From: a virus
DNA length: 64,000 bases
IMG/VR virus record: IMGVR_UViG_3300046170_000446
Coordinates: 1-64,000 of that record
Strand: one strand, 5' to 3'
In this document: in pieces, positions 10,335 to 43,481 of the stretch
Layout: each line of letters begins with the position of its first letter
How positions within the stretch are numbered: the first letter of the stretch is position 1
Position numbers and translations under genes: made by a program
Notes under the pieces: generated by a model
The model's input: only the letters and a program-made list of their open reading frames with translations
Database searches by the model: none
Told to the model about the DNA's origin: nothing

Positions 10335-11501
10335 ATGAAGATTAAGATTGAAAACTTCCAAAGCCTGAAAGATATTGAGCTCGATGTGTCAGGGCTCACT
10401 ATTCTTACAGGCTCTAATAACACAGGTAAGAGCGCCGTCATCCGAGCCGTGAGCGGTGTCTTTAATAACACTCGCGGGAACAGCTTTGTTCGTTACGGTG
10501 AGAAACACTCTACCGTATCCGTAGAGTGGTCTGACACTGAGAAAGTCACATGGGAAAAAGGCAAGAGCACTAACCGCTACACTATCAACGGGAAAGTGTT
10601 CGACAAGGTAGGCTCTAATGCTCCTGATGAGCTTAAAGACTTAGGGGTTTATACGCTTAAAGCTGGTGGTAAAGAGGTGTCTCCCCAACTCGCCCCTCAG
10701 TTTACAGGTCAAGTTTTCTTACTCGACCAACCTGGATCAGTAATCGCAGACTGTATCGCAGACTCAGAGCGCGTAGTCGGCTTGAACAAAGCTCTTAAAG
10801 AGAGCGACAAGCAAAAGCGAGGCTTCAGCTCCATCCTCAAAGTGCGTGAGGGTGATCTACAGAAGCTAGACACTAAGCTAGAAGCCTACGAAGGTCTTGA
10901 TGAAGAGATCAAAGAGTGTGGAAGACTAAGTAAAGATGAGGCGAAGCTCGCTAAAGCTAACCGCATGATGGTGTGGGTCACAGAAAAGAGAGATGCGCTA
11001 AGAGAAGAATATGAGACACTCTCCATACTGAGCCCTGCAACCCAAATCGCAATCCCTAACCTCAGTGAGCTTAGGAGAGAAGCTGAGACTCTCGTATGGG
11101 CTCAAGACACTCTGACTAAGATTAAGGAGGCCCGATTTTGGGCAGAGGTGAGCGTCGAAGAGATTGGTATCCCTAATGTTAGCGCGTTACAAAAGAGGAT
11201 CGACCTCCTAGGGTGGCTACAAGACACCAAGCGCCAATGGGACGAGGCGACTAAGAAAGCCTCTTTAACAGACGAGATCACCATTCCGTCAGAGAGGAAG
11301 TTGAAAAAGGCTTGGGAGCTCTACAAAACTCTCTATGACCTTCGCGCCTCTTACAGCGATGTTCTCAAGAAGCTACGGCAAGATGAGTCAAGGCTCGAAG
11401 ATATTGATGCTGAGTTAAACGAGCTACGAGAAGAGATTAAAAGTGTATCAGAGGTGTGCCACGCGTGTGGTAGACCACTAGAAGGGAGTGACCATTGTTA
11501 A
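10335..11501 (+). CDS. SbcC/Rad50-like ATPase, N-terminal half with zinc hook
   Basis: 388 aa. It begins MKIKIENFQSLKDIELDVSG with a Walker A TGSNNTGKSA at residues 25-34, as in Rad50/SbcC/T4 gp46. Long coiled coil from about 150 leads to CHACGRP at 375-379, the CxxC zinc hook. The protein stops there: the returning coiled coil and Walker B half are missing and are found in a separate gene at 14954. So the ATPase is encoded as two polypeptides. The complex with SbcD (next gene) would process DNA ends for recombination. Its stop overlaps the SbcD start by 7 bp. Confidence 0.85.
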   Translation: MKIKIENFQSLKDIELDVSGLTILTGSNNTGKSAVIRAVSGVFNNTRGNSFVRYGEKHSTVSVEWSDTEKVTWEKGKSTNRYTINGKVFDKVGSNAPDELKDLGVYTLKAGGKEVSPQLAPQFTGQVFLLDQPGSVIADCIADSERVVGLNKALKESDKQKRGFSSILKVREGDLQKLDTKLEAYEGLDEEIKECGRLSKDEAKLAKANRMMVWVTEKRDALREEYETLSILSPATQIAIPNLSELRREAETLVWAQDTLTKIKEARFWAEVSVEEIGIPNVSALQKRIDLLGWLQDTKRQWDEATKKASLTDEITIPSERKLKKAWELYKTLYDLRASYSDVLKKLRQDESRLEDIDAELNELREEIKSVSEVCHACGRPLEGSDHC

Positions 11502-12466: not shown

Positions 12467-12469
12467 GTG

Positions 12470-13454: not shown

Positions 13455-13730
13455 GTGGACTTGAAAGAGACAATCGAGGAGATGTTCGCTCGGCAGAACG
13501 CTCTCGCAACAGAAAAGGCTCGTATACAGGGTCGAGTAGAGGAAGCTAAGGAGCGCCTCAAGTCACTCGAAGACGCTTGCACTGAGAAGGGCATTGACCC
13601 TAACGCTTTGGATGAGGTCATCGAAAAGCTCGACCGAAAGATCAAAGACATGACTCATAAGTTTGAGTCGGAGATCGCTTCTGCGGAAGACCGCATCAAC
13701 ACCATCCTAAACAACGTAAATGAGAGGTAA
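13455..13730 (+). CDS. Small coiled-coil protein
   Basis: 91 aa, GTG start with AGGAG 8 bases upstream. The whole sequence is heptad-like helix rich in Glu, Lys and Arg with one Cys, broken once by KGIDPNALDE. It lies between the nuclease and the clamp and overlaps the clamp frame start region slightly. It could supply part of the coiled-coil arm or serve as linker of the split Rad50-like complex, but that is speculation; no family recognised. Confidence 0.7.
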   Translation: MDLKETIEEMFARQNALATEKARIQGRVEEAKERLKSLEDACTEKGIDPNALDEVIEKLDRKIKDMTHKFESEIASAEDRINTILNNVNER

Positions 13731-15983: not shown

Positions 15984-16490
15984 ATGCTTTTAAATGAACA
16001 CAAACTGACAGCTAAAGAAGAGAAGGCGTTATTCCTGGAGTTTCCTGTAGACACACGCTGTGCTCCGTTTCTTATAACAGCTACTCAGAAGTTGATGTGG
16101 GTGAGCAAGACAAATGCTTCAGGCAATATCCGATCCGCTTTCCAAAACCCTAAAGACACAGGTCTAATGTACTCTAATATTATAGATGAGATTATGAGCA
16201 AGTCTGAAGAGAGCGATTGGGGGCTGGTGTTCCCCAAATCAAAAGAGGGGCTCAAGCAAGCATTAGAGCGAATGGCTTACTATGAGATAGACGATATAGA
16301 ATTTATAGCCCCTGCGGAGGAGTCAGGTGATTTGATCCCTGACAACGCTCAGAGAGTTTCTTGGCTCCAAGGCTGTATCCTAATCGTCCCCAAAAACCGA
16401 GACTATCTCGGAAACTTATTAACTACACCTCGCAATAAGACAATGGCACTAGTCCATAATGCGAGCAGAGGGATTTGTATCTTACAATGA
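15984..16490 (+). CDS. Unknown protein upstream of primase
   Basis: 168 aa, mixed alpha/beta, no signal peptide or membrane segment. Recognisable local features are DTRCAPFLITATQKLMWVSK, QGCILIVPKNRDYLGN and a C-terminal VHNASRGICIL. The stop TGA overlaps the ATG of the primase gene (ATGA), indicating translational coupling. No family recognised. The location inside the replication operon makes a replication accessory role likely by context only. Confidence 0.75.
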   Translation: MLLNEHKLTAKEEKALFLEFPVDTRCAPFLITATQKLMWVSKTNASGNIRSAFQNPKDTGLMYSNIIDEIMSKSEESDWGLVFPKSKEGLKQALERMAYYEIDDIEFIAPAEESGDLIPDNAQRVSWLQGCILIVPKNRDYLGNLLTTPRNKTMALVHNASRGICILQ

Positions 16491-18769: not shown

Positions 18770-20149
18770 ATGAGCTTAGACACCAAATACCGCCCCTCAT
18801 CATTCAATGACGTGCTCGGTCAAGAGGGCTCAATCCGAGTCTTAAGAGAGTATGTCAAGACAGGCACAGGGTTTCATCAGTCTTACCTCTTCGCAGGCCC
18901 TTTCGGGTCAGGTAAGACCACCCTCGCCCGTATTCTTGCAAGGGCGCTCCTCTGCGATAATGTCTCCGATAAAGGCGATCCTTGTAATGTCTGCCCCTCA
19001 TGTACAGACATATTAAACAATGGCGCGAGCGCCAACTTTGTCGAGATTGACGCGGCGACTAATAGCGGTAAGCAAAACGTCAAGAACATCGTAGACCGCC
19101 TCAGCTACTCTTCTATGAATGGTAAGAAGACCCTTTACCTCTTCGATGAAGCACATAGACTCACTACAGAGGCGCTGGATGGGCTCCTAAAACCGATGGA
19201 GGACAATGACGCAGGGTCTGAGAACAAGAAACTCGTCTGTATCTTCTGCACGACTGAGCCTGAAGGGATGCGTCAGACAATCCTCTCCCGATGCGCCCCT
19301 GCTTTTATCATCAAACAGGTTGCCCCTACCAAGATCGCAGACCGTTTAGAGTATGTTTGCGGTGAGGAGAGCTTACCTTTTGAGCGAGAGGCGCTAGAGC
19401 TTATCGGAGAGGTCAGCGATTGCCATATTCGCGATGCGCTGAAAGCGGTTGAAGGTGTCTCCATGTTAGGAGAGGTCAACCTAAAGAATACTCGCGACTA
19501 CCTCCAAGTAGGGAAGCGTAATGCGCTGATTGATGTGTTACGCTATGTGGGAGAAAACCTCTCCAAATCACTTACCGCGCTTAACCTAGTCAAAGAATAC
19601 ATGAGCCCCGCGATCTGTTACGACTACTTGCTAGACCTATGTATGGAAGCAATCAAGCTGGAGCATGGTGTAGGTAAGGTCAAAGCGTTTTGGGAGAAAG
19701 ACAAAATAGAAGATCTCGTACAGGCGCGTAAAGACTATTTAGCTTTGATTATGAGCCATATCTCATCAAAGCCTTTTAAGCCTACTTTTCCTATAATTGT
19801 CTCCGATATTGTGTTTTTGCATAATCTTATAGATAATGGTACGTTGCCTCATCAAATAGTCCTCCCTGCTACCGCTACAAAGGCAGGGGAGTCTAGTAAT
19901 CCGCCTGAGCAAGCGAAAAAAACGGAGGGTGTCGATGCCGAGAGCCTACCTGTGCCTTACGTCAACAAAGACAAAGTGTTTGTTGACCCTAGAGCGGTTA
20001 GAAAGAGTGCTCCCTCTACTAACGCTAAGAAAAGCCTCGACTTCACAACAAAAGAGAGCTTGGGTGTCCAAGAGTTCCTCCGACTTGTCGGTATGCGAAT
20101 GTCGGAGGAAATGAAGACATGGACAGACGAGACAAACCAACATGGGTAG
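18770..20149 (+). CDS. DnaX-like clamp loader ATPase
   Basis: 459 aa. KYRPSSFNDVLGQEGSIRVL is the typical DnaX start. Walker A GPFGSGKTT lies near 43-51, the zinc module CNVCPSC follows, Walker B is YLFDEAHRL, sensor 1 CTTEPEGM, and SRC carries the arginine finger, then the lid and collar domains. Length is between gamma and RFC small subunits. It loads the DnaN-like clamp (13732). ATG preceded by GGAG and by an AT-rich region with GGTATAGAGTGTACC (about 18728-18743) that may hold the promoter. No separate delta subunit was seen in the window. Confidence 0.95.
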   Translation: MSLDTKYRPSSFNDVLGQEGSIRVLREYVKTGTGFHQSYLFAGPFGSGKTTLARILARALLCDNVSDKGDPCNVCPSCTDILNNGASANFVEIDAATNSGKQNVKNIVDRLSYSSMNGKKTLYLFDEAHRLTTEALDGLLKPMEDNDAGSENKKLVCIFCTTEPEGMRQTILSRCAPAFIIKQVAPTKIADRLEYVCGEESLPFEREALELIGEVSDCHIRDALKAVEGVSMLGEVNLKNTRDYLQVGKRNALIDVLRYVGENLSKSLTALNLVKEYMSPAICYDYLLDLCMEAIKLEHGVGKVKAFWEKDKIEDLVQARKDYLALIMSHISSKPFKPTFPIIVSDIVFLHNLIDNGTLPHQIVLPATATKAGESSNPPEQAKKTEGVDAESLPVPYVNKDKVFVDPRAVRKSAPSTNAKKSLDFTTKESLGVQEFLRLVGMRMSEEMKTWTDETNQHG

Positions 20150-20670
20150 TTGTAGAAGCCAATAACTTAGCGGAAGAAAAAATATATGACGGACGTTTCC
20201 TCTCAAGCGTCCGTAATGCGTTAAGGGTAGGGGAGGAACACGAAATCTTCACACCTTGGGAGCTGGTCAAAAACTCAAGGTCTGTAGAGCTTGTTGAGGT
20301 GATGGAGGGATATTTCTTCGTGCGCACAGGATTGCCTGAGCACGAATACTTTAACCTAGAGCGGTTAGACTTTGTTGAGAGAGTCCTATGCACACCTAGC
20401 TCATCGCGTATGCGGATCATACAGGTGATAGGCAACGATAACGTAGAGGAGCTGAAAAAAAAGCTCAAGGTCATGCTCACTTGCGACCTCCAAAAGGGAG
20501 AGCGGATCGTTGTCAGTGAAGGTAACCTGACGAACCTAGAGGGTGAGGTCTTAGAAGTCCTTAACGATGAAGAGGTGCTCATCTACTTCGAGTTTAGATC
20601 ACTCAAGCTCGTCATCACCATGCCCAAGTTTTTCCTTAAACGCGTCGAAGAGGAGGAAGAGGATGAGTAA
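20119..20670 (+). CDS. NusG-like transcription elongation factor
   Basis: 183 aa. The N-terminal TWVVVEANNLAEEKIYDGRF followed by helix resembles the NGN domain that binds RNA polymerase. The C-terminus GERIVVSEGNLTNLEGEVLE then VLIYFEFRS and LVITMPKFFLKRV is a KOW domain. NusG/RfaH paralogues alter elongation and termination, so this protein may act as phage antiterminator. It overlaps the clamp-loader end by 31 bp and is followed by a sigma-like gene, forming a regulatory pair. Acidic C-terminal tail. Confidence 0.75.
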   Translation: MDRRDKPTWVVVEANNLAEEKIYDGRFLSSVRNALRVGEEHEIFTPWELVKNSRSVELVEVMEGYFFVRTGLPEHEYFNLERLDFVERVLCTPSSSRMRIIQVIGNDNVEELKKKLKVMLTCDLQKGERIVVSEGNLTNLEGEVLEVLNDEEVLIYFEFRSLKLVITMPKFFLKRVEEEEEDE

Positions 20671-21262
20671 ATGGTCTGTAATCGGTAATGTTGACCCTCA
20701 CATATTAGCATCAAGGTACTCCAATGAAGACAGCTTCGGTACTCTTGATACACCGACAGAAGAACCTGACGAGATCTCCTTAGCCCAGTCTAGCGAGATC
20801 AAGAAAGTCCTCCACATGCTCCCCGCTCGCGAGGCTGACTTCGTAGAGCTATACTTTTTCAAACACCTCAAGCAAACAGATATCGCGATCCTCTACCGCG
20901 TATCTCAGCCCACTGTGTGTTACCGACTACAGAGGGCTGTTGAGCGCATCAAGTACCTCATCGCGATCCCTCATTTGAGCCAAGAGAAGATTAAAAAGGA
21001 CTTACAGCCCTTCCTAAAAAATCAGGTGGATATCGACATTATGGCTCTAATGTATCTCACCACCTGCCAATCTGAAACCGCTAAACTCTTGGGTGTCACA
21101 CAGGGTCTTATCAGGCATCGCTTCCTGAGGTCTATTAAGACCCTAAAGAAAGAGCCTGACGCCAAGGTCTACTACGAGCTGTTTTACAAGCTCTCTAACA
21201 ATCTCAACATTCTAAGAGAAATCCATAAGGACTCTAATAAGATTGACTTCATCATTCTTTAA
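20663..21262 (+). CDS. Sigma-70 region 4-like double HTH regulator
   Basis: 199 aa from ATG 20663, overlapping the NusG-like stop. LPAREADFVELYFFKHLKQT followed by DIAILYRVSQPTVCYRLQRA is a sigma region 4/LuxR-type HTH. A second unit, MALMYLTTCQSETAKLLGVT then QGLIRHRFLRSI, repeats the fold. No region 2 (-10 recognition) is present, so it is not a full sigma factor. It may bind DNA and polymerase as activator of phage promoters, like late regulators. It lies just upstream of the structural genes, directly above an SD-covering inverted repeat. Confidence 0.75.
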   Translation: MSKWSVIGNVDPHILASRYSNEDSFGTLDTPTEEPDEISLAQSSEIKKVLHMLPAREADFVELYFFKHLKQTDIAILYRVSQPTVCYRLQRAVERIKYLIAIPHLSQEKIKKDLQPFLKNQVDIDIMALMYLTTCQSETAKLLGVTQGLIRHRFLRSIKTLKKEPDAKVYYELFYKLSNNLNILREIHKDSNKIDFIIL

Positions 21263-21312
21263 CGCTCCTTATTCTGCCTATTAAAGAGGTAGATATAGAT
21301 CAAAGGAGCGTT
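21261..21312 (+). promoter_or_regulatory. Perfect inverted repeat covering AAGGAG
   Basis: AACGCTCCTT (21261-21270) and AAGGAGCGTT (21303-21312) are exact complements around a 32-nt AT-rich loop with GATATAGAT. The downstream arm is the Shine-Dalgarno of the gene at 21320. The left arm overlaps the end of the preceding gene, so read-through mRNA would fold while mRNA started in the loop would not. Confidence 0.6.
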
Positions 21313-21319
21313 ATATCTG

Positions 21320-21724
21320 ATGTCTGAAGCCCCTAAAAAATCCCCAAAAACTAAGAGTACGCCGAAAACTAAGAGTAAGCCGAGCCCTAAAAAGGTAGCC
21401 TCTGCTCAAAAGGCTGTGCTCAAGAAGAGAACCAAGATGGCAAGGGGGATCGCCACAAAATGGGTGCTCGCTAACGTTAGACCTGAGTTTCGGTTTACCG
21501 CTTACATTAACGGCGGAGAGACTGAGATTAGAAAGTTTTCTAATCTTATAAAAGGCTTCCGAGACGGCAACATCGGCATAAAAGGCGTTATCCACAAAAA
21601 AGAGATAGGGATCGAAGAGGGCTTTGACTCAATCACCTTTTGGGGATCTGATCTGTCTTGCATAAAGACTTTATGTGAGTGGTTTGAAAGTAAAGGTCAC
21701 GGCACGACAGGAATATGGTGGTGA
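21320..21724 (+). CDS. Lys-rich tail plus small domain, unknown
   Basis: 134 aa. The first 45 residues are a Lys/Pro/Ser/Thr-rich basic tail (SPKTKSTPKTKSKPSPKK), like histone-type tails. The rest is a compact alpha/beta domain with FRFTAYINGGETEIRKFS and ITFWGSDLSCIKTLCEWF, ending GTTGIWW. Nucleic acid binding is plausible from the tail. ATG at 21320; the next gene starts 1 bp after its stop. Confidence 0.75.
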   Translation: MSEAPKKSPKTKSTPKTKSKPSPKKVASAQKAVLKKRTKMARGIATKWVLANVRPEFRFTAYINGGETEIRKFSNLIKGFRDGNIGIKGVIHKKEIGIEEGFDSITFWGSDLSCIKTLCEWFESKGHGTTGIWW

Positions 21725-21725
21725 T

Positions 21726-22259
21726 ATGAGCAACTTCGAGAGCTATTTAGAGAGTGGCGGGTTTTACAAAGGCGCGTCCTCTGACCCAATCTCCGAACAC
21801 CTGGGTGGCACAGTACACCGACTTACGGAACACTACCGTAAGAATAATCCCCTTAAGGGCAGTCTTAAGAGTGGCTCTAGAGTAATGATGTCCCAAAATA
21901 CAGGTACGCTACTCACCTACGACTTCCTCCCTGAACCGAACACTCAAGGCACAGTCGTTAAGGTTAGGACAAGTGAAGGAGACACAATCTCCCATGAGGG
22001 ACGCTTCTTCATTAAGTGGGATAGCGGAGAGTTGACAGCAGCGCTACCTGAGCACTTAGAGATGAGCCGTCAAAAACTCTCTTCTGCTGTTCGCATGAAC
22101 GTCCGTACCGCCTTTGACCTTCAAGACTTTATGAAGAGCTCCTCAGATAACGAGCTCGTCCATAAAGCCTCTAGAGACTTGTGGAAGATGAGTAAAGATG
22201 GAGATCAGATCATCATCGAGCGCCTGTTTGACGAAGACGGCGAACCTCTAAAGGTGTAA
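21726..22259 (+). CDS. Unknown virion-like protein with SH3-like segment
   Basis: 177 aa from ATG 21726. After a Gly/Ser-rich N-terminus, LKSGSRVMMSQNTGTLLTYD and TQGTVVKVRTSEGDTIS then GRFFIKWDSGELTAALPEHL form a KOW/SH3-like barrel. The C-terminal half is helical. Similar small barrels occur in the protein at 38189. Position at the head of a run of structural genes suggests a virion role. Confidence 0.7.
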   Translation: MSNFESYLESGGFYKGASSDPISEHLGGTVHRLTEHYRKNNPLKGSLKSGSRVMMSQNTGTLLTYDFLPEPNTQGTVVKVRTSEGDTISHEGRFFIKWDSGELTAALPEHLEMSRQKLSSAVRMNVRTAFDLQDFMKSSSDNELVHKASRDLWKMSKDGDQIIIERLFDEDGEPLKV

Positions 22260-22263
22260 GAAT

Positions 22264-23652
22264 ATGGCTACTAAGTTTAATCTAAAAACTATGGAGTTCC
22301 CACAAGAAGCTCCTCTAAGGATCAATATCCCTTGGGGCGACCCGCCTAAGCCCAATGCTTTTGTCGCAGTAATGCAAAACCAAACAGCGCAAAAAGAAAA
22401 ACTCGTAGCGTATGACGTGAAGAGCCCGCTCATCGACGTTGACAACGATACCGTGTTTCTCACTTTTGAAAAGCCCCTATCAGACTACCCTACCCTGAAA
22501 ATGAAGCTAAGCTATGAAAAGGACGGCTTTTTTTATAACTATGAGAGAGCGATTTCCGATTGCACACTCACAGAGCCACAGCTCTTAGCCTACTTGAGGG
22601 TTTTTTGGGAAAAGAACAGAGAAAAGCTGAAACATACTCTAATCGCTAAGGGTGCGCGAGTTGCCTCCGACCTGAGCGAGTACCAAGTAGACCCGTTGTT
22701 CTCTAATATAAGAAATCAAGAGGTGCGAGATATGAAGGTAGCTTCTAGCGGAACAGATATTATGTGGGGTGACCCTCCTAAACCCAATGTGTGGAAGGTA
22801 GAGAAACTACCTTGGAAGCCTAACACTGGAGGGGGAGAGTATTACGTTATTAGATCACCTCTCATGGAGGGTGCGCTCCTCGCTCACTTTGATAGAGTGC
22901 AAGGCATAGATCGAGACGATATGTATGTCACCATCCGAGACGGGGAAAACTACACAGATAGAGTCATTGCGGAGGTCAAAATCCACAACGGTGTGCCACA
23001 CCTCGCTCGCATTGACAAAAACTACGGCACATGGTTAACAGAGCTGTGGCGGAGAAGCCGAACGCTCCAAGATCTGGTCAGAAGCCGACTCAAACCTAAC
23101 ATTAAGCTCGCGTCTAATCTTAGCCAATATCAGATAGACCCGCGCTTCGTTAAGCCAGCACCTAAGAAAATGACGAGGACTGCTGGTGAGGTTCGCTTCG
23201 TTAAAGATAACTCTAATGACGCAAGCTCTTGGGCTTGGGGAGACACTGGCGCGAGCGAGCGCCGTATCCCCGCTGACTTCGTGTTCAAGAAGAATGCTCA
23301 GAAAGCCCTCGCTAAAACGATGAGGTCTAGCTTATCTGCAATGGGTCATGCGCTCTCGGCTTACCACACCTTCACTAAGATTAAGAGCGCAGATGTTTCT
23401 CCTGACGGCGCTCTCGGTGGTCGTGGCTACATTCAAAAGGTCGCGCACATGAGAAGAGCTTACATGAACGTAGCTGAAGCCCTCTCCGCCCTCAGCGATA
23501 CCATTTACGATGAGATTAACGCACCTCATTGGAATGACGCTGGCACTCCGAAAGAGGTTAAAGAGATCATCGAGGAAGCGGAAGAGATTAGAGAAGACCC
23601 TGAGGCTTGGGCTGAGGAGCAGGAAAACTCCAAAGACGAAAGCGAGTCCTAA
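22264..23652 (+). CDS. Virion-like protein with internal duplication
   Basis: 462 aa. Two copies of a unit of about 125 residues: the first has PWGDPPKPNAFVAV, DVKSPLIDVD and ends GARVASDLSEYQVDPLF; the second has MWGDPPKPNVWKVE, VIRSPLMEGA and ends IKLASNLSQYQIDPRF. A third partial region with SWAWGDTGASERR and a helical C-terminus follow. The repeated RVASDLSEYQ-type helix resembles the KVA/KAS helices in other proteins of this block. ATG 5 bp after the preceding gene. No family recognised. Confidence 0.8.
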   Translation: MATKFNLKTMEFPQEAPLRINIPWGDPPKPNAFVAVMQNQTAQKEKLVAYDVKSPLIDVDNDTVFLTFEKPLSDYPTLKMKLSYEKDGFFYNYERAISDCTLTEPQLLAYLRVFWEKNREKLKHTLIAKGARVASDLSEYQVDPLFSNIRNQEVRDMKVASSGTDIMWGDPPKPNVWKVEKLPWKPNTGGGEYYVIRSPLMEGALLAHFDRVQGIDRDDMYVTIRDGENYTDRVIAEVKIHNGVPHLARIDKNYGTWLTELWRRSRTLQDLVRSRLKPNIKLASNLSQYQIDPRFVKPAPKKMTRTAGEVRFVKDNSNDASSWAWGDTGASERRIPADFVFKKNAQKALAKTMRSSLSAMGHALSAYHTFTKIKSADVSPDGALGGRGYIQKVAHMRRAYMNVAEALSALSDTIYDEINAPHWNDAGTPKEVKEIIEEAEEIREDPEAWAEEQENSKDESES

Positions 23653-23672
23653 TAATAAGACTATTATTAGGA
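23647..23672 (+). terminator. AT-rich perfect hairpin over stop codon
   Basis: TCCTAATAATA (23647-23657), loop AGAC, TATTATTAGGA (23662-23672): 11 bp without mismatch, covering the TAA at 23650. AT-rich and without T tract, it may be a processing site or weak terminator rather than an intrinsic terminator. Confidence 0.5.
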
Positions 23673-23701
23673 AGGTTAAAACTACTTAAGGGGCGAGCAT
23701 T

Positions 23702-26155
23702 ATGAGCGACAAGAAATCAGAGTCTAACCTCCCAAATGGAGGCTATATCCTAACTGACGGTAGCAACTACGGGCTAGATGGCTTTCAGTTTGACACCGAA
23801 TACGGCGGAGGTGTCCTTGAGAAGGCTCGCCTACCCGAAGCCCACGGACTCAGTAGCTTACCCGAAGGTATCTTCCGTGAAGAAAATCAAATCGGACTCA
23901 GTGATCTCCCCGTAGGGATCGAGCAAGAGGAGGGTGTAGGCGATCTTGGAAGCTACCTCAAAGAGGCTTCCGCGACACTCAGCGACCTCAATTGGTTAGA
24001 GGGTGTTCAACAAGACCCTGAGCGCCTACCCATTAATAATCCTCATGAGATCATCAAAGAGCTAGAAGAGGCTTGGGGAGTCCATAATCGCACCAACGGG
24101 AAAGAGCTTGTTCCTAATAAAGTCGTGCGCCCTTATGAGAGAGACGTTTACCCTGAGTCTAAGCTACCTGGCTATGATGAGCGTAGAGCATATGCTCAGC
24201 TCGCAATGGAGAAAGCTCTCCGTGAACAGTTGCTAGGACATAGCGAAGAAAAGATCATCGCGAAGCTCGAAAAGGTCTTAAGCGGTGGAGAGCTTGCAGA
24301 GGCGCGGAGAACTCTCTTAGAAGATAAAGGGCTCGTCGGTAATGTTTACCTAAGAGCAAAAGCCTTTCCAGGTCTGCATAGGACTTCAAAGTGGGATAGT
24401 CTCATCCCTAAACTCAAGAGAGCTCAGTACATTCTTACAGACGACCCTAAACTCTTAGAGGTCGGTCGGGCTTATGGTAAGAAGATCGTCGCGTCTATCC
24501 CTTGGGGAGAGGCTTTCAAAGCCTACGCGCCTCGCCTTAATATTAAGCTCAACAGGAAGCTCGCTAGCTCTAACAAGAGGGAAGCTCTCCGTGAGGCATT
24601 TTTAGCACAAGAAAACATCCATGTGCGCGAGTCTCACCTACCCGTACAAGCAGACCCCTCGAATTCTATAAGTTTGAAGACCGCTAAGTCTAATCTTAGA
24701 GTGGCGGAGGTACATCAAGAGGTTTTCCGTAAGCTCTCCGCTGAGGAACAGCTCCGTACTAAGGTAGACGCTCAAATCTCTAAGTGGGCTTCGCAGGGGC
24801 TCTTAGACGAGCGGGCTCAAAAGAGACTCGCGAAAGGAAACGCAGACGCAAAAGAGACTCTGCGCGTTGCCGCTTCTCTTGTACAACTCAAAGTCGCTAA
24901 GTCTGCTCGCTTCCGTAAATACGCAGGTGAGGGTGTCAACTATCAGCCTCTTAATATTAGAGAGGCTTCACAGGCTTGGGAAGCTCTAGAGCAGTTTGAG
25001 GCACAGGCTGAAGACAAGATGCTCCGCCAAGCAAAAGAGTTTGTCGATGAGCTTGTAGACACAGGGATGATCAAAGGCTCTCAAGGCCGTAAGATACTCG
25101 CCTCTGACCTCAACGGCAAAGATCGACTCAAGGTAGCCAGCGCAGTGCTCGCTAAGAATATGGCGAGAGCGGATCAGAGAGTCGCTAAGATTAAGGTCGC
25201 TAACTATGATGGACTTGGTAATGAAGTTACTGAGCACATCTCTAAGATTAAGACTCACACTGAAAGCGATCTCGCAAGCCTTGAAGACCAGCGCGTAAAG
25301 CTCGCACAGCTTCAAGCTCTCGACGGAGATAACCAAGCCTTGATCACTAAACAGGCTTCTGAGTATCTTGAGCGAGCGCGGAAGAGCGGGCTCGTCAACA
25401 AGTCTCAATACAAGAAGTTAGCTTCTCTTGATGCCTCTCCTGAGCGTAAGATTAGCCTGATTACTGCTGTAATCGAGCATAGCACCCGCACTAAGGTTGC
25501 GAGTAGCACACCTGTCGCAGAGAAGAAAACCTATGAGGGTGTCGCCTTTACTGCCCACGTCAGTGAAAAGGTAGAGAAGGTAGCCTCTCAGAAAGAGCTG
25601 TCTGCGGTCAACAACTGGGTATCCCGTCAGATGAACGAGGGCGCTATCGGTAATGAGCTAGATCAGCTCATCCACGCTAAGTTTAGCGACCAAATGATTA
25701 AGCAAGCCTCTGAGCAGATTGACTCACTCCGTAAAGCACATGAAGGGCTTGCAGGAGTTGTCTACGTAGACGCTAAAGCGTATGCCTCTAAAGACGGCAC
25801 TACGGGTTGTGATGAGGGCGCTCTGCGCCATAGGGCTAACCCGATCAAGTTTCTTCTCAAGATGGATAAGTGCAAAGGCTGTGTATTCGCTAATGCCGAT
25901 GGTGTCTGTCAGAAGTACAATAAGACTCTCGTTAAGGATGTTCCTGTAGAGGACAGAGAAGGCTATCAGCGCGAGAGCATAAGATTAGCCAATGCTCCTG
26001 ACCATGAGATCACCGCATCTCTGTTCGGAAACAGCTATGACCCTAACGAGTTTAATCTAGCTAACAGTGACTTTGATAGCATCGGTTATAACTCTGAGAA
26101 GAAAGCTCAAGACAAGCTCTCTGAGGTGTTATTCGGAGGCTTTGAGATTGACTGA
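23702..26155 (+). CDS. Large repeat-rich virion-like protein with Cys motif
   Basis: 817 aa. From about 355 to 690 there are four diverged units with the pattern G(L/M/A)I-x-KLAS-x-A...L-V-A, for example QGLLDERAQKRLAKGN, TGMIKGSQGRKILASD, SGLVNKSQYKKLASLD and EGAIGNELDQLIHAKF, separated by helical Lys/Ala/Glu linkers. Near 695-770 a Cys-containing domain has GCDEGALRHRANPIKF and KCKGCVFANADGVCQKY, likely binding metal. I have the impression that the last motif recurs in large-phage virion proteins but know no function. It may be an internal or tail-length type protein. The frame ends overlapping the next gene. Confidence 0.8.
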   Translation: MSDKKSESNLPNGGYILTDGSNYGLDGFQFDTEYGGGVLEKARLPEAHGLSSLPEGIFREENQIGLSDLPVGIEQEEGVGDLGSYLKEASATLSDLNWLEGVQQDPERLPINNPHEIIKELEEAWGVHNRTNGKELVPNKVVRPYERDVYPESKLPGYDERRAYAQLAMEKALREQLLGHSEEKIIAKLEKVLSGGELAEARRTLLEDKGLVGNVYLRAKAFPGLHRTSKWDSLIPKLKRAQYILTDDPKLLEVGRAYGKKIVASIPWGEAFKAYAPRLNIKLNRKLASSNKREALREAFLAQENIHVRESHLPVQADPSNSISLKTAKSNLRVAEVHQEVFRKLSAEEQLRTKVDAQISKWASQGLLDERAQKRLAKGNADAKETLRVAASLVQLKVAKSARFRKYAGEGVNYQPLNIREASQAWEALEQFEAQAEDKMLRQAKEFVDELVDTGMIKGSQGRKILASDLNGKDRLKVASAVLAKNMARADQRVAKIKVANYDGLGNEVTEHISKIKTHTESDLASLEDQRVKLAQLQALDGDNQALITKQASEYLERARKSGLVNKSQYKKLASLDASPERKISLITAVIEHSTRTKVASSTPVAEKKTYEGVAFTAHVSEKVEKVASQKELSAVNNWVSRQMNEGAIGNELDQLIHAKFSDQMIKQASEQIDSLRKAHEGLAGVVYVDAKAYASKDGTTGCDEGALRHRANPIKFLLKMDKCKGCVFANADGVCQKYNKTLVKDVPVEDREGYQRESIRLANAPDHEITASLFGNSYDPNEFNLANSDFDSIGYNSEKKAQDKLSEVLFGGFEID

Positions 26156-30947: not shown

Positions 30948-32768
30948 ATGGGTATGGGATTAAGTAGCCTCGCGCTAAAAGCTAATCAAGGAGGCGGGTC
31001 TGATGCAAAAGAAATCGCCCCTATCACGGAGTATATCGAAGCCCCTTGGGGGCTCAATATGCGCCTATTTCCTGTCCAAAAGGTGATCCTTAAAGCCCAC
31101 TATGGGCTAGAGCTTAGCGATAAAGACACTTTTGACGTTACGGATTGGCGAAGGTCTAATCCCCTTAAGCTCACAGAGAAACAATATCTCGAATATCTCT
31201 ACAACGAAGGGCGCTGTAATATTAAAGAGGTCATACCTGGGGTTGAGCGCCGAGAGATGATCCTGTCTATTGGTCGCCGTAGCGGTAAGACTACTATCTC
31301 TGCGTGCATCGCGGCTTATGAGACTTATAAGCTCATCTCTAAAGGCGATCCTCAGAAGTATTACGGACTGCCTAAGTCTAATAATATTCAGATTATCAGC
31401 GTAGCGACGGATAAAGACCAAGCAGGGCTCTTGTACCAAGAGGTGTCGGGTCACTACAAAAACTGCTCTTTCTTTGGCCCTTACACGGCTAACAACACCA
31501 TGTCGTATGCGAGGTTTCAGACTCCAATAGACATTGAGCGGTACGGTTCCTACTCAGAGGATCAGAACGCTAAGGCTACGATTAAGATTACGTTTAGGTC
31601 TTGCGTAGCAAAAGGTCTGCGTGGTGCTGGTAACATCGTGGTGATCCTTGACGAGGTAGCGCACTTTACTGACGCAGGGCAATCAGGAGCCGATGCGGTG
31701 TACAACGCGGTAGTCCCTTCTACCTCAGCGTTTTCACCTAAAGACCCCAAGGACTCTCGCGTGCCTATAGGGGAAGTTGAAGGTCGCGTAATCTTAATCT
31801 CTTCTCCTCTTGGTAAGCAGGGGATGTTTTATAAACTCTTCCAAATCGGCATGGGTAGCTCAGAAGCCGCTAAGAATATGCTTTGTGTGCAAGCGCCCAC
31901 ATGGGAAGTAAACCCTACTGTACCTGCGAGCGAGTTTGAGAAGCACTATCAGAAAGATGCTACGGTATTCTTTACCGAGTACGGCGGTGTATTCACTGAC
32001 CGCACTAGAGGTTGGTTAGAGGACTCTAAAGACCTAGACGCGTGTATAGATGACTCTTTAAAGCCTCAGAGCCGAGGAGCTTTCCGCCAGTCTTACTTTA
32101 TGGGGATTGACTTAGGGCTTGTGGGTGACGGTACTGCTATTGCCATAGGTCATGTGAACCATGAGGGCAAGATCGTCCTCGACCTCGTAGATCAGATTAA
32201 AGCTGGCGAGGGAGCACATGAGAGCAGAGAGAGATTAGACTTTGATGATGTAGCGGATTGGATCGAGGGCTACACTAAGAAGTTTCTTATCCAAGAGGGC
32301 ATCTTCGACCAATGGGCAGGTATTCCGCTAGAGCAAGCGTTAGAGAAGCGAGGGCTCAAACAGATGAAGTCGGTACACTTAACTAAGACGCTCAACTCTC
32401 AAATGTACCAAAACTTTAAAGACATGATATGGGACAAGCGCATTTCCTTTTACAATGCGCCCGTTAAAGACGGGGATGAATACTGCGACTACCTGAAAGA
32501 GCTTTTAGAGCTCCAGGCTGATAGGCAGAGTAAACACGTTGTGATTGTAGAAGCTCCTCAGCTAGCAGGGAAGCACGATGATCGCTCTGACGCGATAGCG
32601 CGTATGATATGGTTAGCGACTCAAAAGCTAGGTAAACAAGCATATGTCTCTAAAGGCGGGAACGCTGATCCTCGTATACAAAGTGCTTTAAGGAGGAAGG
32701 CTTCTTTGAGAGCGAGACGATCAGGTAGTCATTCCTCACGTATGATACCTAAGAAACGCAGGAGATGA
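30948..32768 (+). CDS. Terminase large subunit
   Basis: 606 aa. ATPase domain: adenine-binding region LFPVQKVILKAHYG, Walker A SIGRRSGKTT near 107-116, Walker B VVILDEVAHF near 230-239, and coupling motif ISSPLG. Nuclease domain: GIDLGLVGDGTAIAIG near 386 and the acidic HDDRSDAIARM near 543 (RNase H-like). It cuts and pumps DNA into the prohead through the portal. The C-terminal 30 residues are Arg/Ser-rich. The start adjoins the preceding gene without gap. Confidence 0.97.
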   Translation: MGMGLSSLALKANQGGGSDAKEIAPITEYIEAPWGLNMRLFPVQKVILKAHYGLELSDKDTFDVTDWRRSNPLKLTEKQYLEYLYNEGRCNIKEVIPGVERREMILSIGRRSGKTTISACIAAYETYKLISKGDPQKYYGLPKSNNIQIISVATDKDQAGLLYQEVSGHYKNCSFFGPYTANNTMSYARFQTPIDIERYGSYSEDQNAKATIKITFRSCVAKGLRGAGNIVVILDEVAHFTDAGQSGADAVYNAVVPSTSAFSPKDPKDSRVPIGEVEGRVILISSPLGKQGMFYKLFQIGMGSSEAAKNMLCVQAPTWEVNPTVPASEFEKHYQKDATVFFTEYGGVFTDRTRGWLEDSKDLDACIDDSLKPQSRGAFRQSYFMGIDLGLVGDGTAIAIGHVNHEGKIVLDLVDQIKAGEGAHESRERLDFDDVADWIEGYTKKFLIQEGIFDQWAGIPLEQALEKRGLKQMKSVHLTKTLNSQMYQNFKDMIWDKRISFYNAPVKDGDEYCDYLKELLELQADRQSKHVVIVEAPQLAGKHDDRSDAIARMIWLATQKLGKQAYVSKGGNADPRIQSALRRKASLRARRSGSHSSRMIPKKRRR

Positions 32769-33289: not shown

Positions 33290-34975
33290 ATGAAAAATCA
33301 GCAGGACGCAGACGAGATTAGAAAGATCCCGAAGCGGGCGAGTGTCCATGTAGGTAAGCCTCAAAAGATCGTTAAGACGGCAATGCTGTCTAAAACGGCT
33401 TTCGGTGCGTCCTCGGTCGGCGGTTCTGCGATGGGGTCAGGCGGTAACTTCTACTCTCCTGAGCTATCTACAGACTTTCTTGAGTTACCTCAGTCATTAG
33501 ACGAACAGCGTAACTATTACCGCTTCTTCTATCGGAACGACCCGTTCGTAGGTCAAGCTATTGACCTCCACACCGAGCTCCCCTTATCTAAGCTAAGATT
33601 AGGTATGCCTAAGGCAGAGAACAGAGCTATTGCAGAGCAGGCACTCAACTTCTGTGTGCGCTGGGCTAAGCGCGTAGGACTCTTACACCGTATGATTGAA
33701 ATCGTACATGATTACCACTTGGTGGGTGAGGTCTTTACTTTCTGCGAAGACACTTCACCTGATATGCCTGAAGATATCACTTACGAGGTCAAACGCGAGC
33801 TAGATAAGAAGGGCAACCCTGTCGAGAAAAAGGTAAAGCGTGAAGACCACGTAGAGCGTGAGGTCGCGTGGCTAAAGAAAAACTATAAAGGGTGGACGGC
33901 TATACGCGTATTGCCACCTGAACAAATACACATGGAGTCGTTCCCTTTCACAGATCAGAAGCTCATACAGCTTATACCTGACTCTAAAACAAAAGATCTG
34001 ATCTCTAGAGCAGATATGGGCGACCCCTCGGCTAAAACCGTAGCTAAGACGATGCCTGAAGATGTGATCAAAGCGATCCGTAGCGGTGATAATATACCAC
34101 TCAACACTGACCCTGACGCAGGGAGCTTCGTCCACTATATGGCGAGGAAGAAATCTCAATATGAGCCGAGAGGTCACTCAATCTTAGAGCGGTGTATTCG
34201 CACGCTTGTATATAGAGACAAGCTACGACAGGCGCAAACCTCTATCGCCTCAAGGCACATGACTCCTATCAGGATTGTGTACGCTGAGGACATGGACGCA
34301 ACAGATGTTGAGGAGCTGAGAGATCAGATTGACCTCGCGCTCGCTGACCCTGATTACTCGATTGTGGCTAACTACCAAATCAACTGGGAAGAGATGGGTG
34401 CAGACTCACGTCTCCTCAATCTAGACGGAGAGTATGAACTGTCTAATCGGCAACTCTACGCAGGGTTAGGAGTGACCGAGGGCTTGTTGAGCGGTGAGTC
34501 TAGCCACAGCGGTGAGCGCATCTCCCTTGAGGTAATCAACACTCGTTATATGCTCCTCCGAGAGCTTCTACAGGATATGGTAGAAGAAAATATGCTGAAG
34601 CCGATGTGTCGTCGCATGGGCTTCATTGAGACTAGAGATGGTGAAGATCAAGTCATCTACCCAACCCTTAGCTTTACCCGCCTCGCGATTAGAGATAATC
34701 GAGACACTTTTGACGCGCTCTTTAATCTTTATCAGAAGGGCTCTCTTGATGTAGACGTAATCTTAGAGCTCCTAAACATCGACCCAGTGATGACGAGAGA
34801 GAAGCTCAAGAAAGACCTGTTCACTCTCCAAGACTCTACATTTAATGAGGTCTTGCGTAGCGTGTACGGGGATGCCGCTCGCGATGTGGCGGAAAACTCA
34901 GACGCGGCTCAACGGATTGCGGCAGAGCTGGGGCTCATCTATGAAAAGAAGGAAGAGGACACAAACCGCTTCTAA
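33290..34975 (+). CDS. Portal protein
   Basis: 561 aa. Called from order (directly after terminase) and typical portal features: QRNYYRFFYRNDPFVGQAID near the N-terminus, a clip/stem region with charged inserts, RGHSILERCIRTLVYRDKLR, the segment GVTEGLLSGESSHSGERISL, and RLAIRDNRDTFDALFNLYQK. Portals form a dodecameric ring at one capsid vertex, through which DNA passes. The N-terminal 45 residues are basic and low in structure. Confidence 0.88.
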   Translation: MKNQQDADEIRKIPKRASVHVGKPQKIVKTAMLSKTAFGASSVGGSAMGSGGNFYSPELSTDFLELPQSLDEQRNYYRFFYRNDPFVGQAIDLHTELPLSKLRLGMPKAENRAIAEQALNFCVRWAKRVGLLHRMIEIVHDYHLVGEVFTFCEDTSPDMPEDITYEVKRELDKKGNPVEKKVKREDHVEREVAWLKKNYKGWTAIRVLPPEQIHMESFPFTDQKLIQLIPDSKTKDLISRADMGDPSAKTVAKTMPEDVIKAIRSGDNIPLNTDPDAGSFVHYMARKKSQYEPRGHSILERCIRTLVYRDKLRQAQTSIASRHMTPIRIVYAEDMDATDVEELRDQIDLALADPDYSIVANYQINWEEMGADSRLLNLDGEYELSNRQLYAGLGVTEGLLSGESSHSGERISLEVINTRYMLLRELLQDMVEENMLKPMCRRMGFIETRDGEDQVIYPTLSFTRLAIRDNRDTFDALFNLYQKGSLDVDVILELLNIDPVMTREKLKKDLFTLQDSTFNEVLRSVYGDAARDVAENSDAAQRIAAELGLIYEKKEEDTNRF

Positions 34976-37239: not shown

Positions 37240-37304
37240 AGTCTCGTTTTATCTTCTATTAAAGCCCCTTTTAGTAAAACACCATTCCCACAGGAGTAAT
37301 CCCT

Positions 37305-40075: not shown

Positions 40076-41710
40076 ATGTCTAGGAACCGATTGACTTGGC
40101 GAAGTGCTTCAGCACACCCTGCCACTCCTTGGGAGGGTCACACCCACCCTGCATCTTACGAAGACCCTGTAGAGGATGCTTACGGGATCGACTCTGACTT
40201 TGGCGCAGAGGTAACCGAAGGCCCTTACAGCAACGGTATGCCTCCTGCTTCACAGGGTTGGGTTTCTGACCACCCTGCGTCACGTCGCCACCTTGAGCGT
40301 AAGGCTTCGCGCTGTATTCAAATCGCACAATCAATGCTCGGTAAGACTGCAAGCGCCCTTGAGATTGAAGACCAAGCTCTCGCACTTATGGACTTGAGCG
40401 ACGGTGAGGTTAACCGTACTCTGTCTCGCGTAGCTTCTTCTTTCATGGTCGCTGAGGACATGGAGGATGACGTTGAGGCTGGAATGTTCGCTGAGGACAT
40501 GGAGGCTCACGATCTCTTCGACGCGTATGACGTTGAGGGAAACGGCATGATTAGCCGTAACGAGTTTGGTGGCTCTGATGATGTCTTCGACGCAATCGAC
40601 CTCGATAATGACGAGATGCTCTCACCTTACGAGGTAAGCCAAGGTCTTGGTCAAGGTTTCTCAAGAGAAGACGACCTCTCTAACGTAGAGAATGAGCTCG
40701 ACTACCTTGAGGATGAGGTCGAGGCTCTTGAGGATGAGCTCGGTATTACTGCGGAAGATATCGAAGCTGACCGCAAATGGGGTATGAAAGGCCCTCGCGG
40801 TAAGTACAAAGGTGGCAAAGGCTACTTCTCCGCTCCTAAAGCTCGCAAAGGCATTAAGCAACCTCTTAAGCCTTGGGTTCGCGGTGGCGCAAACAAAGCT
40901 ATGAAGCAGTACAACCGCCAATACGGTGCTACCTACCTTGATGATAGCGGTCAGCGTAAGACTAAGGGTCGTAAGAAGCTCAGAAGAAACAAGAAGGCTT
41001 CTGAAGAGCTGGCTACTTACATGGATCTTCCTCAGAACCACGCGCACGCTTTCTACTCAGACGATGAGTCTAACAACTTCGAGATAACCGCAAGTGATAT
41101 CGAGGCTGAGCTCGCTTCTATCGCAGACGAGATCGAGGCTTGTGAAGCAGAGATGCAAATGGCAAACGAGATTGAGGCTTGCGGTATGTATGCTGAGGAC
41201 ACTGAGGCTATGCACACGGCTGAGGACATCGAGGCTGACCTTTTCGCTGAGGATGTTGATGCTATGCACTGCGCTGACGACGACGACGACGACGACAGCG
41301 ACGTTGAGGCTATGCTCGCAGAGATGCTTGCTGAGCTAGACGGAGACACTGAGGCTTGTACTGCTGAGGATACTGAGGCTATGCAGATGGCTGAGGACAC
41401 CGACCTTAACGCATCTCTTGAGCCCCACGCAGATGACAACATGGGACTCAACGCTGGCGATATGGAAGCTGACGAAACTCTCGCGGCTCTCTTCAAAGCG
41501 GCATCTGACGATGATGACGAAGACGAAGACGAGACTCAAGACGAGGACGAGTCTGAGGGTACTTCTAAGAAAGCATCTCTCAAGCCACAAGGTCGCAAGT
41601 CTAGCGAGGGCGTTAAGTCACTCGGCGCGATCAACAAAGAGGCTTCAAGCGAGGTTAATGATCTCGCTAAACTTTGGGAGTCTGCACCTGACGTAAAGGC
41701 TTTCTTCTGA
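40076..41710 (+). CDS. Acidic protein with paired EF-hands and AED-EA repeats
   Basis: 544 aa. Residues about 151-162 (DVEGNGMISRNE) and 174-185 (DLDNDEMLSPYE) form two EF-hand loops with the expected acidic positions, 23 residues apart. Around them and in the C-terminal half, units like FAEDMEA, TAEDIEA, YAEDTEA and AEDTEAM recur at least eight times. A basic section (about 235-305) separates them. The gene lies between protease and capsid and is followed by a strong terminator. Scaffold or internal core protein is a reasonable inference; calcium binding needs testing. Confidence 0.78.
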   Translation: MSRNRLTWRSASAHPATPWEGHTHPASYEDPVEDAYGIDSDFGAEVTEGPYSNGMPPASQGWVSDHPASRRHLERKASRCIQIAQSMLGKTASALEIEDQALALMDLSDGEVNRTLSRVASSFMVAEDMEDDVEAGMFAEDMEAHDLFDAYDVEGNGMISRNEFGGSDDVFDAIDLDNDEMLSPYEVSQGLGQGFSREDDLSNVENELDYLEDEVEALEDELGITAEDIEADRKWGMKGPRGKYKGGKGYFSAPKARKGIKQPLKPWVRGGANKAMKQYNRQYGATYLDDSGQRKTKGRKKLRRNKKASEELATYMDLPQNHAHAFYSDDESNNFEITASDIEAELASIADEIEACEAEMQMANEIEACGMYAEDTEAMHTAEDIEADLFAEDVDAMHCADDDDDDDSDVEAMLAEMLAELDGDTEACTAEDTEAMQMAEDTDLNASLEPHADDNMGLNAGDMEADETLAALFKAASDDDDEDEDETQDEDESEGTSKKASLKPQGRKSSEGVKSLGAINKEASSEVNDLAKLWESAPDVKAFF

Positions 41711-42602: not shown

Positions 42603-43481
42603 ATGAGCGCACCAGTAACTAACGCAGTTAAATCTAAGATTATCAGCGATTACATTAAGACTCCGCAGGGTCGTGCGAAGCTCGCCGCTTCAATGACTCA
42701 GCCACTTCGTACTCGCCGTGACTATAGCTCTGTCGGACGTAAGACTTTCTTGGTCGAGCAACTCCCTGACGGCGCACTTCCGATCTACGACAAAGACCCT
42801 GACGTGACCGCGTTCGTGGTTGGTGAAGAGGGCGAGAACATTCTTGCTATCACCAAGCCACGTCGTGTGATCTTCCCTCTTTTCGAGATCGCATCAAACC
42901 CTGAGATCCCTCTCACGCAGATTAAAGAGCGCCGTTTCGACCTCATCGAGCGTGCTCAGGATCTCGCTCGCGCACAGATCCAGGCGGCAGAGGACGAGCG
43001 CGTCTTCAGCATCCTCGATGCTATCGCGACTGAGGGCTTTGACAGCCTCCCAGGTGGTACTAACGCAGACATCCCTGTCGTTGCACCTATCAGTGGGTCT
43101 GTTCTTGCTGACGCATACAGCCTCATCGAGCGCCACGATCTCCGTGTTGCACGCGTCTTCATGAACGCACGCGATTACGCAGACGTTCGTAAGTTTGGTC
43201 GCGACATTCTCGACATCGAGTCTCAGGCAACTCTCCTCAAGACTGGTCTTCAGGCTAGCCTTTGGGGTGCTCAGATCATCACTAGCCGTATCGTACCTGT
43301 TGGTACTGTTTACGTCTGCTGTGAGCCTGAGATGTTCGGTCGCATCCCTGTCCGTACTGAGCTTACTGTCCTCAGCGCAGATGACCCTAAGGCTCGTACT
43401 GTCGGTTTCTCTTGCTTCGAGAACCTCGGTATCGGTGCATTCAACCCTCGCGGGCTCGTTCGCCTCACTATCACTCGCTAA
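42603..43481 (+). CDS. Major capsid protein
   Basis: 292 aa. GGAGG 8 bases before ATG. Order after protease and before a terminator, high-expression codon choice, and a sequence typical of HK97-fold coat proteins: TQPLRTRRDYSSVGRKTFLV, FPLFEIASNPEIPLTQIKER, EDERVFSILDAIATEGFDSL (spine helix region), HDLRVARVFMNARDYADV and the P-domain RIPVRTELTVLSADDPKA. Short for a large phage coat protein; no N-terminal scaffold (delta) domain is evident, fitting separate scaffold genes upstream. Confidence 0.85.
   Translation: MSAPVTNAVKSKIISDYIKTPQGRAKLAASMTQPLRTRRDYSSVGRKTFLVEQLPDGALPIYDKDPDVTAFVVGEEGENILAITKPRRVIFPLFEIASNPEIPLTQIKERRFDLIERAQDLARAQIQAAEDERVFSILDAIATEGFDSLPGGTNADIPVVAPISGSVLADAYSLIERHDLRVARVFMNARDYADVRKFGRDILDIESQATLLKTGLQASLWGAQIITSRIVPVGTVYVCCEPEMFGRIPVRTELTVLSADDPKARTVGFSCFENLGIGAFNPRGLVRLTITR

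Follow-up and report, generated by a model that had tools for sequence, protein, structure and literature searches.

A phage NusG paralogue paired with a sigma region 4-like protein, and a candidate late promoter box behind the pair

The pair, its two proteins and its conservation

Bases 1-64000 of the 105,117-bp virus record IMGVR_UViG_3300046170_000446 (IMG/VR) form the window analyzed here; the record as a whole is called the own record below. In this window, a gene for a NusG paralogue is followed by a gene for a protein with two helix-turn-helix (HTH) motifs, the first of which resembles region 4 of sigma factors (the sigma-4 protein). Sequence comparison indicates that this pair is a real, conserved module. 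The features at the locus, all on the + strand, are as follows.

18770-20149, +: gene for a DnaX-like clamp-loader subunit (phrog_5846 clamp loader, E 6.4e-51; DNA_pol3_delta2, 2.3e-24)
20119-20670, +: NusG paralogue, 183 amino acids (aa), NGN domain at about residues 8-121 and KOW domain at about 125-178
20663-21262, +: double-HTH protein, 199 aa, sigma region 4-like HTH at about residues 39-103 and second HTH at about 121-162
21260-21313, +: hairpin with 11-bp arms (21260-21270 and 21303-21313)
21267-21282, +: box copy CCTTATTCTGCCTATT, a candidate late promoter, called from the motif found behind sigma-4 genes and from its genome-wide enrichment
21320-21724, +: conserved gene, the first behind the box, with orthologues in L001-L003, G003, G004, G005 and G019 (G and L numbers are our labels for genomes and loci)

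The NusG gene overlaps the clamp-loader gene by 31 nt, and its stop overlaps the sigma-4 start by 8 nt; the three genes therefore form the unit dnaX-nusG-sig4, of which the clamp-loader gene is the first. The same gene adjoins nusG upstream in G003, G004, G005 and G019. The sigma-4 start is taken as the ATG at 20663, the listed open reading frame (ORF) start at 20567 being an in-frame ATG upstream. A sequence-only reading of this DNA had placed NusG-like and sigma region 4-like genes in one unit here, and both ORFs are indeed real, overlapping and at that place. It had also called them translationally coupled, which the gene overlap suggests.

The identity of the first protein becomes apparent at the level of its family. 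Searched alone, it matched KOW2_Spt5 (E 1.3e-4) and NusG (0.062) of Pfam, both short of the cut-off, and the antiterminator family phrog_6386 (E 0.008). A profile of the 81-sequence family, in turn, matched Thermotoga maritima NusG (2lq8) over positions 7-157 with E 8e-8, and matched Spt5 KOW domains too. The AlphaFold2 model has a predicted local distance difference test score (pLDDT) of 93, and its best matches in the PDB, found with Foldseek, are NusG, RfaH and Spt5, with E down to 1e-8; VIA-align places it on the NGN domain of RfaH (8pen) with Z 8.6 and a root-mean-square deviation (rmsd) of 3.3 over 97 aligned residues. An NGN fold followed by a KOW domain, the arrangement of NusG and Spt5, is thus found by both the profile and the predicted model, and the proposed elongation factor paralogue is borne out as a NusG. 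Residues G64, Y65 and F67 are invariant in the 81 sequences. The motif to which they belong, GY.FV, aligns with FPGYVLV of Escherichia coli NusG, a region of the NGN domain that we take to be the clamp-helix binding motif. The profile alignment with E. coli NusG stops at residue 161, short of the KOW residues that bind Rho and S10.

The second protein is recognized directly as a relative of sigma region 4, with a Sigma70_r4 match that passes the cut-off (E 4.2e-9). Its family profile matches SigF (8jzt) with E 4.2e-8, and region 4 of SigF superposes on the predicted model at 0.9 A over 52 aligned columns. VIA-align gives Z 10-11 and rmsd 1.1-2.8 over 62-65 residues for region 4 of WhiG, SigF and SigR, the closest example being WhiG 6pfj (Z 11.1, rmsd 1.1, 62 aligned). 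The model has a pLDDT of 84, with mostly low confidence in the first 38 residues; its top Foldseek match is RpoE 9n9q (E 0.015). The second HTH is as conserved as the first and similar to it in sequence, and invariant residues gather in both. Among the VIA-align matches listed, none belongs to the second HTH itself, and the region 4 half accounts for them. The proposed double-HTH regulator is therefore present: one HTH is that of sigma region 4, and the other is conserved too. A match to sigma region 2 (PF04542) is absent from the own record; the sigma-4 protein, having no region 2, is therefore not a sigma factor by itself. In one relative (L147:7971-9002), the double-HTH unit appears by eye to be duplicated.

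Single-protein searches of 50,697 phage records found one match, the 485-kb uncultured phage LR745208, which was also the record found with the NusG query. Profile scans were far richer, yielding 58 sigma-4 loci and 78 NusG loci in IMG/VR and 3 loci in bacterial genome contigs. In 78/78 loci found by the NusG profile, NusG is followed on its strand by a sigma-4 gene, and in 58/58 viral loci found by the sigma-4 profile, NusG lies upstream. Both genes are present in 144 of the 145 loci that have sigma-4, and the exception (L145) begins at a contig end. These loci overlap, many contigs having been found twice; at 90% identity, 77 sigma-4 and 81 NusG sequences are left. The sigma-4 alignment (A3) holds the window and 68 of the 77 sequences, without 9 that are partial or long, and the NusG alignment (A4) holds 80 of the 81 plus the window, L128 being left out. 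The gap between the two genes is at most 60 nt in 90 of the 144 loci, 61-150 nt in 36, and more than 800 nt in 18. The order dnaX-nusG-sig4-...-TerL-portal-...-head protein, where TerL is the terminase large subunit, is kept in LR745208, G003, G004, G005 and G019, and relatives with the pair include phages of 485-619 kb.

A further hint that the two families belong together comes from the 619-kb phage G004, in which a second double-HTH protein (572491-573159) is extended by a KOW domain resembling the one in the NusG partner. It scores E 8.8e-33 with the sigma-4 profile and an i-E of 0.0013 with the NusG profile, in KOW columns 122-165. This fusion may be regarded as a Rosetta-stone link between the two families.

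Phage LR745208 also carries a second, longer double-HTH protein (L155, 153829-154695, + strand), in which no KOW domain was recognized. Its clamp-loader gene (L001:12550-14436) seems by eye to hold an intein-like insert near Walker B.

The box behind the pair and its surroundings

In most loci, a short element follows directly behind the sigma-4 stop, even though the rest of the spacer varies and the gene that comes next is not always the same. Expectation maximization on 76 post-sigma-4 regions yielded the motif CGgTA-N6-yyTAT, with a log-likelihood of 419 as compared with 78, 86 and 93 in three shuffled sets. The box exceeds 8 bits in 66 of these regions and stays at or below that score in 10. 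Within the aligned sites TAT is the strongest part, and a sequence resembling a ribosome site, GGTAGG, follows about 15 nt behind it. The CGGTA-N6-YCTAT box is a group-wide candidate promoter, located where late promoters should sit.

Matrix scans indicate that the box is not confined to the pair. Sites above 11 bits upstream of genes number 4 in the own record, 12 in LR745208, 21 in G003, 11 in G005 and 14 in G004 (at most one site per set belonging to the training data), as compared with 2, 5, 4, 2 and 3 on the antisense strand of the same stretches. Matrices with permuted columns gave means of 0.4-1.3, and 0/300 permutations per genome reached the observed counts. Two genomes had been held out. 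G019 has 10 boxes against 0.76 in the control, with one copy of 16.6 bits following its sigma-4 gene; for G020 the numbers are 17 and 0.47. Stretches of 50 kb from T4 and phiKZ contained 0 boxes against 0.17 in the control. In the window, the other copies and the structural genes are located as follows.

2710-2725, +: third window copy of the box above 11 bits (matrix scan)
30948-32768, +: TerL (phrog_2, E 8.8e-22)
33290-34975, +: portal protein (phrog_16240, E 1.2e-32)
37245-37260, +: second copy of the box, before ORF 37305 (matrix scan)
42603-43481, +: major head protein (phrog_2522, E 4.1e-50)

A box also precedes the orthologue of ORF 37305 in G003, G004 and G020. The pair is surrounded upstream by replication genes (SbcC/SbcD-like at 10335 and 11495, exonuclease at 12467, clamp at 13720 and primase at 16475), and the recognizable structural genes downstream are TerL (30948), portal (33290), protease (38528) and major head protein (42603). 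The sequence-only reading had the unit directly preceding the first structural operon. The boundary between replication and structural genes does lie here; the operon itself is less certain, as ORFs 21320-26155 gave no convincing match in family searches of the window proteins and TerL is reached first at 30948. As for other features of the window, phages whose other common proteins are mostly 23-68% identical have major head proteins of 87-89% identity, a gene in the structural region (40076-41710) has an EF-hand motif, and a 53-aa ORF at 17993-18154 matches the start of DNA methyltransferase families and looks truncated or broken.

In three relatives, the distribution of the box can be compared with that of other promoter-like sequences. 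LR745208 has an array, TAAA-N16-CCGATAG, of 51 sites (spacings 15-17), which resembles the sigma-28 consensus, also in its spacing. Other arrays are found in G003 (CTTACTT...GCGTAGAT) and G005 (TAAACTT...GCGTAGAG). For this comparison, the structural block was set as the 55 kb starting at NusG, so that early and late are names given by position. The block holds 0/51, 4/55 and 0/23 array sites in LR745208, G003 and G005, and 3/12, 6/21 and 3/11 CGGTA boxes, respectively (Fisher p 0.006, 0.023 and 0.028, uncorrected). The sequence-only reading proposed a compact switch from early to late transcription. A role of this kind is suggested by the box, which stands in front of genes throughout the phage genomes and whose share in the structural block exceeds that of the other arrays.

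Other motifs were considered and rejected. TAAA-N16-CCGATAG is not a plausible target of the sigma-4 protein, since it avoids the structural block, other phages have arrays of a different sequence, and the own record has no array. The 51 sites in LR745208 (L148-L172) are nearly identical, reading CGATTTC-n-CTAAAAAGT...CCGATAGGG with an extra conserved upstream box; those of G003 (L174-L193) and G005 (L194-L213) have GCGTAGA in common and differ in the upstream box. The promoter sequence named in the sequence-only reading, TATAAnAnACAC, had to be given up: it is a two-copy motif (10300 and 35418), neither copy is at this unit, and both lie within loops of other Shine-Dalgarno hairpins. As a system-wide box it fails as well, with 2 exact copies against 0.11 expected, but 3 against 2.99 when one mismatch is allowed. 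A motif search in 63 upstream regions of the own record returned only patterns resembling ribosome sites.

The hairpin that had been noticed ahead of ORF 21320 is confirmed, with its 11-bp arms and a leader z of -3.7. Its 3' arm hides the Shine-Dalgarno sequence AAGGAG (21303-21308) of that ORF, and the box at 21267 lies partly in its 5' arm and mostly in its loop. In the own record, 15/107 genes have a stem of at least 9 bp whose 3' arm covers the Shine-Dalgarno sequence, as compared with 1.1% in controls; these hairpins may constitute a phage-specific translation-control device. Enrichment of such stems is not clear in G003 (1.7% versus 0.8% in controls) or LR745208 (1.2% versus 1.1%). The stems of the own record include those at window genes 10335, 21320 and 35461, and at own-record genes 102239 (+), 77179 (-) and 62092 (-), and several of the loops are rich in ACAC.

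How the pair may act on RNA polymerase

No match to the beta subunit of RNA polymerase (RNAP) was found in 4 records, and none to beta' in 8, with positive controls succeeding in 14/14 genomes for each. Host RNAP must therefore be used. Complete sigma factors, having both region 2 and region 4 (SigH 3mzy, E 3e-9), form a separate family that occurs in 11/18 large records, G020 included. It was not found in the other 7, which are possibly incomplete and all of which carry sigma-4, nor in the joined own record, which is incomplete. Region 2 matches below the threshold in these phages belong to this family. The sigma-4 gene is present in 13/14 records tested, plus LR745208, G003, G004 and G005. 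The complete sigma family is divergent with a conserved N-terminal part, and 19 loci were found in IMG/VR (among them L227:2340-3644 -, L203:16552-17733 +, L189:5990-6982 - and L151:14150-14953 -).

With a probability of roughly one half, the pair is a phage module that retools host RNAP for late (structural) genes in a T4-like manner, with its own NusG built in. At the sequence level, this proposal is supported by the two families, their order and co-occurrence, and the box with its genome-wide spread. The beta' clamp helices are the docking place of sigma region 2, and the beta flap is that of region 4 (PMC7892883); NGN domains bind the clamp helices at a site analogous to that of sigma, with which they compete (PMC7819879). 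The sigma-4 protein would sit where sigma region 4 does on the beta flap, its HTHs touching DNA upstream of the promoter, and the region 2 needed for promoter opening would come from another protein, either a complete sigma encoded elsewhere in the phage or a host sigma. Once region 2 has left, the NusG paralogue would take the clamp-helix seat; in T4, host NusG could likewise take the clamp helices once gp55 leaves, with gp33 staying on the flap (PMC7892883). A polymerase that started at CGGTA-N6-YCTAT would thus stay phage-marked and processive through long structural operons. In the phage of the window, the hairpin would block translation of read-through RNA, and RNA started at the box would be without the 5' arm, much as in T4 gene e, where a hairpin silences read-through RNA and the late RNA is without the 5' arm (PMC3014915).

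Several observations weigh against this proposal. No -35 element, which is where region 4 would bind if the sigma-4 protein is to read the box, is found in the 66 aligned box sites. The CGG part of the window copy at 21267 is degenerate, and the own record has only its 4 boxes above 11 bits against 2 antisense. Late is a matter of position. G020 has 17 boxes, yet no sigma-4 gene or pair is present in its record; its contig, however, starts only within the run of structural genes, beyond where the module would lie, with a box directly before the orthologue of ORF 37305. In the distant subgroup, made up of the 18 loci with gaps above 800 nt, 0.9-2.9 kb separate the two genes, box matches are weak or absent, and the gene in between resembles a 5'-3' exonuclease by eye. 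The sigma-4/KOW fusion was found once only, with a modest KOW score. The hairpin was rejected as a group-wide device, as 2.65 Shine-Dalgarno bases are paired against 2.20 with a shuffled 5' part in the 62 loci that have a box above 8 bits and a recognizable start.

The same components might instead serve RfaH-type antitermination, in which the box would be an ops-like leader element and NusG would read CGGTAG on the non-template strand of paused polymerase, bringing about read-through into structural genes with help of the sigma-4 protein from the flap. The core CGGTAG resembles the ops element of RfaH, GGCGGTAGCGTG, and the box may therefore be read at the elongation stage. NusG is the invariant partner, the box is without a -35, and NGN domains can read non-template DNA, with ops sites lying in leaders (PMC7819879). 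However, the strongest part of the box, TAT, is unlike ops, and the distance from box to start codon is short and even, mostly 20-45 nt. In addition, 22/62 boxes were called in gaps between divergent genes, none with a promoter-like site of the array type upstream and 6 with less than 40 bp of room, so that the transcript must begin there, which favors a promoter; the gap labels are mechanical gene calls of which at least one is wrong (G004 277503), and this again counts against the proposal of a late module. Antitermination seems doubtful on balance. A more radical use of the NGN domain would make the pair a two-part initiation factor. NGN, placed in the region 2 seat, would read the melted non-template strand of CGGTA...TAT, sigma-4 would hold the flap and upstream DNA, and NusG would stay into elongation. 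If true, one protein would serve both start and elongation and sigma exchange would be unnecessary; we consider this quite improbable.

It may also be that the complete sigma of the phage (or host sigma) reads the late box by itself, which likewise weighs against a role of the pair at the box; the pair would then regulate other steps, such as host shut-off or middle genes. The presence of a complete sigma in 11/18 large records, including G020 with its many boxes, speaks for this, whereas its apparent absence from 7 records that all carry sigma-4, the fixed position of the box right behind the pair, and the phage-specific two-box arrays, which would suit such a sigma, make it unlikely. As another alternative, the two genes would be mere neighbors in a replication operon, and sigma-4 would be an ordinary repressor or activator that acts at the nearby box to control the operon to which it belongs. 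An operator-like box at the end of the pair and a protein with two HTHs and no region 2 would fit. A box at 4-21 places per genome, a pair that stays together in 144/145 loci, and the existence of a sigma-4/KOW fusion do not, and there is little to recommend this explanation.

Comparison with known systems

Phages without their own RNAP must redirect that of the host, and if the proposed late module is real, it would be a second way of doing so beside that of T4, in phages of up to 619 kb whose transcription has been little studied. In it, an elongation factor would be tied to a domain that reads promoters, and it bears on whether one phage unit can use both the NusG and the sigma seats on polymerase. 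CGGTA-N6-YCTAT is also a defined candidate late box that can be searched for when these genomes are annotated. A literature search, with most subscription papers outside it, returned no paper title naming a phage NusG/sigma pair.

In the split sigma of Bacillus subtilis, SigO/RsoA, region 4 is likewise on a separate protein; the partner here is NusG and not a region 2 protein. The NusG paralogues RfaH, LoaP and ActX resemble the phage protein in that each is an NGN and KOW protein beside genes that it possibly serves; unlike them, it comes from a phage and has a sigma-4 protein as its partner, and an ops-like pause site is conjectural here. Phage proteins that carry a NusG or antiterminator annotation (phrog_6386; A0A6J5PZH6 in BFVD) have the same fold and are distant.

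Other parallels are found among phages that act on host RNAP. The group 2 jumbo phages, with a minimal single-HTH sigma and gp33 orthologues (PMC7824862), also have no RNAP of their own and a sigma-4-like HTH for the beta flap, whereas two HTHs and a NusG partner are found here; the main text of that paper contains 0 occurrences of NusG, KOW or antitermin. In T4 late transcription, gp33 on the flap, gp55 as the region 2 protein and the clamp gp45 act on host RNAP, which is also the proposed target of the pair. The likeness extends to a compact promoter box without a -35 (its activity being a prediction here), to a location beside clamp or clamp-loader genes, and, with T4 gene e, to a hairpin that hides the Shine-Dalgarno sequence and has a promoter, here a candidate, inside it (PMC3014915). 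There are differences as well. According to PMC7892883, gp33 is structurally unrelated to region 4 and T4 uses host NusG, whereas here a true region 4 is present and NusG is phage-encoded; the box is CGGTA-N6-YCTAT, as compared with TATAAATA in T4. As proposed, the pair would belong with other phage factors that redirect the RNAP of the host to late genes, in a variant in which a NusG paralogue accompanies a true region 4 protein.

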